A stretch of DNA of 64,000 nucleotides from Spirochaetota bacterium (GTDB lineage Bacteria > Spirochaetota > Brachyspiria > Brachyspirales > JACRPF01): the NCBI GenBank assembly GCA_016214035.1, contig JACRPF010000008.1:62001-126000 (forward strand). The letters run 5' to 3'. The first letter of the stretch is position 1; each line of letters begins with the position of its first letter. The notes under the pieces are model-generated. The model had not been told where the DNA came from and searched no databases. It saw nothing but the letters and a program-made list of their open reading frames with translations. Positions 4,262 through 36,545 of the stretch are shown here, in pieces. Made by a program: the position numbers and the translations under genes.

Positions 4262-4429
4262 GATAATACCTTTTTCAAAAGCAGATACTCCAGTATAGCG
4301 CACATCATGCCGTGCTGTCCATGGACTTGGATGCAAAATAGCTAGACTATTCTGCAATCGCATGAGCGACGCGTATCAGAATAGGCCCTCTATCTACCAT
4401 ATCTTTTACAACGCGCGACAGGCGAAGGA

Positions 4430-4568
4430 AAGGAATATATTTATAGAAGCCGGCAAAGCTGTGCGAGCCGAGTCAGCAATAACGGGAACGGGCAAACATC
4501 AGCGTGCCGTCAATACCGGAAAATAATCTTTTGCGAGTTCTTTGCCGGCTTCTAGAAATATATTCCTT
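4430..4568. repeat. MITE-like inverted-repeat element, copy 1
   Basis: The left arm 4430-4458 and right arm 4540-4568 are inverted copies of each other over 29 bp with one mismatch, around an 81-bp centre. A related element with the same arm pattern (GGAA..TATTT, then CGGCAAA) lies at 12259-12407. No transposase is nearby. It could be a non-autonomous mobile element or a structured transcript. Confidence 0.65.
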
Positions 4569-4609
4569 CCCGAGCCTACAGCGCGTGCCTCCAGCCCGGC
4601 CCATCCACC

Positions 4610-10614: not shown

Positions 10615-10655
10615 GGGAAAGCTCCTGTTTTATATAGTAATACTTAAATTTCATT

Positions 10656-10794
10656 GTCGCTCTCGCGATGCATCGTGCATCGCTTGCGCTAGCAAAAGCG
10701 CGGGGGTTATTCCATAATTGGCACATCCATGTGCATGCTTTTCATTGAATAATCGTTTCATTTCGCTGCTTGTCTCCTGAGTAATCCCGCGCTA
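10656..10794 (-). repeat. Structured ~140-bp element, copy A
   Basis: Read on the minus strand the element starts with TAGCGCGGGATT, whose TAG is the uppS stop codon. Stem 1 is AGCGCGGG paired with CCCGCGCT. Inside it hairpin 1 (10719-10738) is GCACATGGATGTGC with GGA at the tip. Downstream hairpin 2 is GCGATGCA-CGA-TGCATCGC, followed by GCGAGAGCGAC. It lies between uppS and galT, so it is probably transcribed with them. In this copy the second loop reads CGA rather than GGA. Confidence 0.8.
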
Positions 10795-12258: not shown

Positions 12259-12407
12259 CGGGGGAAATGTATTTCGAAAAATCGGCAAAAAACTCGCATA
12301 GTGCGGATTTGCTATATAAAGCATCACGGCTAATAAACGCCTGCGCTCCGGATTGAGCCTATGCTGCTCAAACAGTTTTGCCGATTTTTCGAAACACATT
12401 TTCCCCT
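12259..12407. repeat. MITE-like inverted-repeat element, copy 2
   Basis: The left arm (about 12261-12290) and right arm (12376-12406) are inverted copies with a few mismatches and share the core TTTCGAAAAATCGGCAAAA. Flanks extend the symmetry weakly. The arm pattern and order resemble the element at 4430-4568, but the two are diverged. Confidence 0.6.
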
Positions 12408-15140: not shown

Positions 15141-15143
15141 ACC

Positions 15144-15281
15144 GTCGCTCTCGCGGTGCGTCCGGCACCGCTGGCGCTAGCGTAGCGCGGGAGCTTATTA
15201 TTGCTCCGCGCATCCGTGCGCGTGTTCAGTTATGGGATATCGTTATGTAAGGATATTGGGGTTGTGAAGGATCCCGCGCTA
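15144..15281 (-). repeat. Structured ~140-bp element, copy B
   Basis: Read on the minus strand it starts TAGCGCGGGAT, the TAG being the stop codon of the upstream membrane protein gene. Stem 1 is AGCGCGGG/CCCGCGCT. Hairpin 1 (15207-15222) is CGCGC-ACGGAT-GCGCG and hairpin 2 is GCGGTGC-CGGAC-GCACCGC, both with GGA in the loop. GCGAGAGCGAC closes the element. Relative to copies C and D, paired bases have changed together. Confidence 0.8.
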
Positions 15282-36156: not shown

Positions 36157-36298
36157 TAGAGCACGGGACCTCATAACCTGCCAAATAGCAATAAAAAAAC
36201 AAATACCGCAACATAAACACGCACATGGATGTGCGAAATAAGGACATACTCCCGTGCTCCGCTAGCGCCAGCCGAACTGGATGTTCGGCGAGAGCGAC
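36157..36298 (+). repeat. Structured ~140-bp element, copy C
   Basis: Starts TAGAGCACGGG. Stem 1 is AGCACGGG/CCCGTGCT, in which the G-C pair of copies A and B is replaced by A-T. Hairpin 1 (36220-36235) is CGCAC-ATGGAT-GTGCG. Hairpin 2 (36271-36289) is GCCGAAC-TGGAT-GTTCGGC, a different stem sequence that is still fully paired. The element ends GCGAGAGCGAC. Both loops contain GGAT. Confidence 0.85.
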
Positions 36299-36354
36299 AA
36301 TAAATCAGAGCAAACAGCATTATCCAATCAACCAAATCTAATTCTTTCACTAAG

Positions 36355-36493
36355 AGCACGGGGCTTTTTTACCTACCCAATGGCATAAACCAACCAATAT
36401 CCAATGCATAACACGCACACGGATGTGCGAAATAATAGTCTACCCCCGTGCTCCGCCGAGCGCAAGCGGTGCCGGATGCACCGCGAGAGCGAC
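36355..36493 (+). repeat. Structured ~140-bp element, copy D
   Basis: Begins AGCACGGGG 195 bp after the matching point in copy C. Hairpin 1 (36414-36429) is CGCAC-ACGGAT-GTGCG and hairpin 2 (36466-36484) is GCGGTGC-CGGAT-GCACCGC. The ~55 bases after C and after D also align (shared core AAACAGCAT), so C and D are a tandem duplication of a ~195-bp unit. Confidence 0.85.
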
Positions 36494-36545
36494 AGAAAAG
36501 CAGGGTAAACAGCATCCTTCATTCAGCCTAATATAATCCATTCAC

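Follow-up and report, generated by a model that had tools for sequence, protein, structure and literature searches.

Candidate CsrA sites in a dispersed family of GGA-loop hairpin repeats of a Spirochaetota genome

The genome of a Spirochaetota bacterium carries a family of structured, dispersed repeats whose hairpin loops keep the triplet GGA. Judging from the sequence, we think it rather probable that these elements are CsrA sites in 3' UTRs, borne on REP/MITE-like repeats that act at the RNA level. Four copies (A to D) lie inside the window, which is the whole 64-kb stretch of DNA that was analysed (Table 1). GGA occupies seven of the eight loops of their two hairpins, HP1 and HP2, and the exception is a CGA in HP2 of copy A; an earlier note on this DNA had reported both, and the sequence confirms them. 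The repeat family is larger than the earlier note had it. A covariance model was built on 26 sequences, 25 of them copies from the window's genome and one from a genome of another genus in the same taxonomic family (G001). Over the whole 5.2 Mb assembly of 22 contigs, it recovered at least 92 copies with E below 0.001, as compared with the four in the window. Since the best 150 candidates were scored, 92 is a lower bound. The tail of the element has 39 exact matches genome-wide, and all those whose sequence was read sit in an element or an element-like module.

Table 1. Position of the element copies and their parts in the window, and of a transposase gene elsewhere in the same genome.
Feature	Coordinates	Strand	Remark
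Copy A, element	10655-10794	-	Undecaprenyl diphosphate synthase gene upstream; element begins at its stop codon
Copy A HP1	10721-10734	-	GCAC-AUGGAU-GUGC
Copy A HP2	10665-10683	-	GCGAUGC-ACGAU-GCAUCGC; sole window loop of eight without GGA
Copy B, element	15143-15281	-	Upstream minus-strand gene ends in TAG, where the element starts; gap -3 to the stop codon
Copy B HP1	15207-15222	-	CGCGC-ACGGAU-GCGCG
Copy B HP2	15153-15171	-	GCGGUGC-CGGAC-GCACCGC
Copy C core (P1, HP1, HP2, tail)	36159-36299	+	Covariance-model match G000:C22:98159-98299, 120.8 bits
Copy C P1 5' arm GAGCACGGGA	36159-36168	+	Partner is 36250-36259; P1 covaries among copies
Copy C HP1	36220-36235	+	CGCAC-AUGGAU-GUGCG; fits ACANGGAUGU
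Copy C P1 3' arm TCCCGTGCTC	36250-36259	+	From sequence, fold and covariation
Copy C HP2	36271-36289	+	GCCGAAC-UGGAU-GUUCGGC
Copy C near-invariant tail GAGAGCGACA	36290-36299	+	Tail pairwise identity 97%
Copy C A+T-rich 3' extension	36300-36353	+	Resembles the stretch past copy D; repeat family D1
Copy D core	36354-36494	+	Covariance-model match G000:C22:98354-98494, 124 bits
Copy D HP1	36414-36429	+	CGCAC-ACGGAU-GUGCG
Copy D HP2	36466-36484	+	GCGGUGC-CGGAU-GCACCGC
Y1_Tnp gene (IS200/RAYT-like)	L147 1290-1869 (G000:C12)		Start apparently cut by an antisense element copy

Structure of the element and conservation of its loops

The core of the element has a fixed order. An outer stem, P1 (e.g. 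GAGCACGGG...CCCGTGCTC), encloses a variable linker and HP1, and is followed by a junction (AGCGCxAGC), HP2 and the tail. The element measures about 140 nt, or about 195 nt in the many copies that have an A+T-rich 3' extension. The two small hairpins per element of the earlier description are indeed present, but P1 and the tail (GCGAGAGCGACA) had been left out of it. The span given at that time, 36220-36484, is likewise real, but it runs from HP1 of copy C to HP2 of copy D and so cuts both copies, whose complete cores occupy 36159-36494.

The fold is supported by covariation. In the alignment of the 26 sequences, 97.2% of the pair cells of P1, HP1 and HP2 hold standard pairs, and both sides have changed in 12 of the 21 pairs (56 cells). 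None of 500 shuffles was as high as the observed alignment on the pairing, double-change or covariation score, and the signal was lost when the pairing partners were slid. The isolated folds of copy C (z -4.6) and copy D (z -3.1) are stronger than those of dinucleotide shuffles, and the HP1 motif, with three mismatches or fewer, recovers three window copies against 0.00 in shuffled sequence. A further helix, CGCU/AGCG, joining the junction to the tail, was dropped as it lacked covariation. No conserved helix was found in the 3' extension, though many copies have similar A+T-rich sequence there. Pairwise identity is only 38-39% in the linkers and 97% in the tail, which suggests that the copies are old or that the linkers evolve fast, while the structure and the loops look maintained.

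Two variations on this plan were observed. A hairpin module like GTTGCGGAGCCGTACTCGGCGAC, with a non-GGA loop (such as UACU or UACC), is inserted near HP2 in L189, L198, L204, L217, L222, L234 and other loci. About ten copies (L153, L166, L198, L200 and L209 among them) have their own 5' end (CATAGCGCGGG or a variant) directly repeated 51-55 nt past the tail, as if by tandem joining or by insertion beside a partial copy.

HP2 has a five-base loop in 64 copies, with 18 variants of the stem, and GGA fills the middle three positions in 63 of them. The first loop position is C in 31, T in 24, A in 7 and G in 2, and the last is T in 48, C in 12, A in 3 and G in 1; none of the 64 reads ANGGA, and GGANG is found in 63. 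For HP1, 70 of 89 loops have GGA, AUGGAU being the commonest, and 54 of the 89 match CANGGANG. The conservation of GGA in further copies, on which the earlier note had staked its reading, therefore holds despite the diverged linkers. Altogether the 92 copies contain 178 phased-GGA hairpins. GGA is the commonest of the 64 triplets at the phased loop position, with 178 occurrences versus 79 for the next, GAU, which overlaps GGA; comparable hairpins in the rest of the window have a phased GGA in 1.2% of cases. Ten copies have three to four GGA hairpins by way of extra hairpin modules. The median gap between neighbouring GGAs is 50 nt, and 87 of the 89 gaps fall between 10 and 63 nt, the range over which a CsrA dimer bridges two sites (PMC7652899).

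The loops without GGA follow a pattern of their own. About 16 HP1 loops carry CGA, mostly as ACGAU, that is, ACGGAU minus one G (e.g. L188, L193, L194, L199-L201), and the copies concerned resemble a sub-lineage that has lost this G. The drift by which the earlier note had accounted for the CGA of copy A is too simple an explanation, given that so many copies share CGA in HP1 and mostly in a single loop form. Because ACGAU replaces ANGGAU in this apparent sub-lineage, the predicted binding of CsrA by HP1 may be lost there.

Distribution and position relative to genes

The family is nearly confined to the window's genome. G001 has a single clear copy (73.9 bits) with GGA in both loops, and also encodes csrA. 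No other credible match was found with the covariance model among the best 11 candidates per genome in 296 genomes of the phylum. A match in G152 (33.5 bits, E 2e-4 over the 296 genomes) is probably due to chance, having no proper HP2 or tail, and matches to GCGAGAGCGACA in G001 outside contig C112 are not elements. A core-plus-tail pattern returned 91 genomic and 2 viral stretches from wider contig sets, in which the window's own genome may be absent; with one match each and many phyla represented, they were taken as a group to be chance matches.

Genes were called with our own codon-usage scorer in about 1.5 kb on each side of the copies, and the placement counts are approximate owing to this crude calling. 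The nearest upstream gene shares the element's strand in 60 cases and lies on the other strand in 30 (p 0.002); for the downstream gene the split is 55 to 29 (p 0.006). P1 opens with the stop codon of the upstream gene as its first three bases in 31 copies, and several more copies start within 5 nt of it. No copy was seen in the inverse arrangement, with its tail meeting a stop codon; the shortest distance from tail to gene among the minus-strand downstream genes listed is 15 nt. Several of the upstream proteins look complete by Pfam (GMP synthase, SAM synthetase, fructose-bisphosphate aldolase and DnaN), and the protein upstream of copy A matches PF01255 with E 4e-85. The 30 upstream proteins that were scanned have mixed functions and reveal no theme of a regulon.

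Both neighbour genes of copies C and D lie on the minus strand. A promoter and terminator scan found no convincing sense-strand promoter or terminator at these two copies, and the minus-strand gene has a good sigma-70-like promoter directly adjoining copy C. Some copies elsewhere sit after apparent terminators of the upstream gene. Where the upstream gene is on the opposite strand, GGA is kept in HP1 of 20 and in HP2 of 21 of the 30 copies, as compared with 48 of 60 for each hairpin where it is on the same strand. GGA is thus retained in opposite-strand copies too, and orientation is no clear predictor of it.

csrA, fliW and the flagellin leaders

A csrA gene, absent from the window according to the earlier note, is present in the complete genome as a single gene (PF02599, E 3e-23), adjoining a gene read as fliW (L031). 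The closest solved relatives of its product are CsrA proteins, including RsmE 2jpp (54.7 bits), and it retains L4 and R44, which we take to be RNA-contacting residues. The genome also encodes FlaA, a flagellar sheath protein taken to be specific to spirochaetes, and on this ground is read as that of a spirochaete. The flagellin leader is a classic target of CsrA. Each of the three flagellin genes with canonical N-termini (L242, L243 and L244) is preceded by a phased-GGA hairpin, which lies 38-39 nt from the start codon and 5' of the Shine-Dalgarno sequence; the expected number of such hairpins in a 140-nt leader is about 0.012. This layout resembles that of flagellin mRNAs repressed by CsrA. 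The loops are AUGGAU, AAGGAA and GGGAU; the first is the commonest HP1 loop and the last fits the NGGAN form of HP2. In Leptospira, in which the adjacency of csrA and fliW is known, CsrA binds a GGA hexaloop in the flaB leaders in a GGA-dependent manner (PMC8668096).

The consensus of CsrA sites obtained by SELEX is RUACARGGAUGU (PMC7652899). HP1 with a CGCAC stem (ACANGGAUGU) comes near to it and shares its hexaloop and its AC/GU closing pairs. The likeness to the consensus that the earlier note saw applies to most HP1 loops but not to HP2. Its CsrA reading as a whole gains from the presence of csrA, the retention of GGA and the similar flagellin leaders, and loses the drift explanation of CGA. 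Several observations argue against the CsrA reading. The HP2 pentaloop is without the A of ANGGA, and about 16 HP1 loops have CGA. The 7-bp stem of HP2 is more stable than most SELEX winners, which had stems of four pairs at most (PMC7652899), although one of the flagellin-leader hairpins here has a stem of 8 bp. Counting against it too are the thirty copies, C and D among them, whose upstream gene runs on the other strand, the lack of a convincing sense promoter before C or D, the copies placed after apparent terminators, and the absence of a clear link between orientation and GGA.

If the elements are CsrA sites as we propose, the element, which most often starts at or beside a stop codon, would be transcribed as the head of the 3' UTR of that gene, and one CsrA dimer could bridge both loops, as on other CsrA targets. 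With about 90 copies, roughly 180 predicted CsrA sites would be spread over the transcriptome. The consequence could be a titration of CsrA alongside FliW, an altered stability of the carrier mRNAs, or both; action in trans as a sponge and action in cis on the carriers cannot be told apart from the sequence. These steps, from transcription to titration, and the past mobility of the repeat are what we infer.

Comparison with known systems and other explanations

The sRNAs CsrB, CsrC, RsmX, RsmY and RsmZ share with the element several GGA-loop hairpins per RNA, the CsrA-site consensus (in the element, in most HP1 loops and not in HP2) and a csrA gene in the genome. They are a few dedicated sRNA genes of Gammaproteobacteria, whereas the element offers two to four predicted sites in each of about 92 copies, most often at gene 3' ends, in a spirochaete with FliW. 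A sponge of the CsrB type is an independent sRNA with its own promoter, terminator and BarA/UvrY-type control. Most copies of the element adjoin an upstream sense gene. For one RNA outside the Gammaproteobacteria, TwoAYGGAY of Clostridia (RF01731), binding by CsrA has been suggested (PMC4333381). It resembles the element in having two hairpins with (A)YGGAY-type loops, but the junction, tail and taxa differ, and searches of Rfam with gathering and with permissive thresholds (the window and six other copy loci, E up to 5) gave no relevant match, RF01731 included. Flagellin leaders such as B. subtilis hag and Leptospira flaB have CsrA sites that form a hairpin with an ANGGAN or NGGAN loop, as the element does; these sites lie beside the Shine-Dalgarno sequence and repress one gene, whereas the copies of the element are mostly on the 3' side of genes.

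The CGTC-tagged REP superfamily has been reported in Spirochaetes (PMC3733652). CGTC and GTAG REPs and the element are alike in being high-copy, extragenic, hairpin-forming and mostly downstream of genes, and Y1_Tnp genes occur in the element's genome. The complement of the element starts with TGTC in 61 copies and with CGTC, the tag of CGTC-type REPs, in 18. REPs, however, are single hairpins of 20-40 nt, whereas the element spans about 140 nt, has several hairpins and P1, and conserves GGA in its loops. A CGTC REP is reported to have a stem of 8-9 bp, A/T pairs after the tag and a CCA tail; the element has three helices and GCTCTC after the tag, and shows neither the A/T pairs nor the CCA tail. 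The GTAG tag was not seen in the element, and two of the three Y1_Tnp loci are without the tail or junction motif. The element differs from CsrB-type RNAs, which have sRNA genes of their own, and from the short single hairpins of CGTC REPs, and RF01731 gave no match; we therefore class the family as dispersed, REP-like and bearing the hallmarks of CsrA sites. The window holds two other elements of about 145 nt (4427-4571 and 12260-12406), with inverted-repeat arms of 31-32 nt and 94% complementarity, which are possibly a second MITE-like family; the one at 12260-12406 resembles 50 nt of L232 (88% match).

The main rival to the CsrA reading is that the family consists of selfish REP/MITE-like palindromic repeats whose loops are conserved for another cause. 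A transposase of the Y1/HUH type would spread them and recognise the single-stranded DNA hairpin, GGA would be kept for that reason, and CsrA would be irrelevant. We regard this as unlikely. The high copy number and the near-confinement to one genome are as expected of a selfish repeat, whereas the maintenance of structure and GGA in copies whose linkers differ by about 60% is not. The genome has three Y1_Tnp genes, one of them with an element at its apparently truncated start, and the reverse complement begins with TGTC or CGTC; yet the GTAG tag was not seen, and CGTC REPs have been reported without a dedicated transposase (PMC3733652). Some ten copies in which the 5' end recurs as a direct repeat, about 52 nt beyond the tail, also fit a selfish repeat. 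Against it, dozens of copies abut a stop codon with their 5' end in the sense orientation, while no listed minus-strand downstream gene ends 14 nt or less from the tail, and the loops match the flagellin-leader hairpins of the same genome. The spread of a repeat and its use as CsrA sites are compatible, and both can hold.

It is improbable, in our judgment, that the elements are 3'-UTR structures which shield the ends of mRNAs or delay ribosomes at stop codons, with a loop reader, if any, other than CsrA. Such a role agrees with the exact position at stop codons described above, with the covariation of P1, and with the housekeeping nature of upstream genes such as MetK, GuaA, fructose-bisphosphate aldolase, DnaN and TopA. 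Similar roles have been proposed for REPs, most of which reportedly lie downstream of genes' coding parts (PMC3733652). A purely mechanical structure, however, needs no GGA in nearly all of its loops, the added hairpins included. Chance, with GGA simply common in loops and the four copies a small local duplication, finds some comfort in copies C and D, which are adjacent and 74-75% alike, but is already refuted by the genome-wide family, with its 92 or more copies scattered over many contigs, the 1.2% background and GGA in 63 of 64 HP2 loops.

RNAs that sequester CsrA are established in Gammaproteobacteria, and spirochaetes are believed to depend on FliW (PMC8668096, PMC7652899). A search by title and abstract, with most subscription journals outside its range, found no published account of such a family. 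Going beyond the reading of the elements as CsrA sites, we offer as a tentative and rather doubtful proposal that a mobile repeat has seeded some 90 putative CsrA docking modules in 3' UTRs, so that the bulk of the mRNA pool would buffer CsrA as a distributed sponge besides FliW, in place of dedicated CsrB-like sRNAs. If true, paired CsrA sites at about 90 loci would be a different route to an RNA antagonist, and a repeat would have rewired a global post-transcriptional regulator. REP-like families elsewhere would then be worth reading for protein-binding loops.
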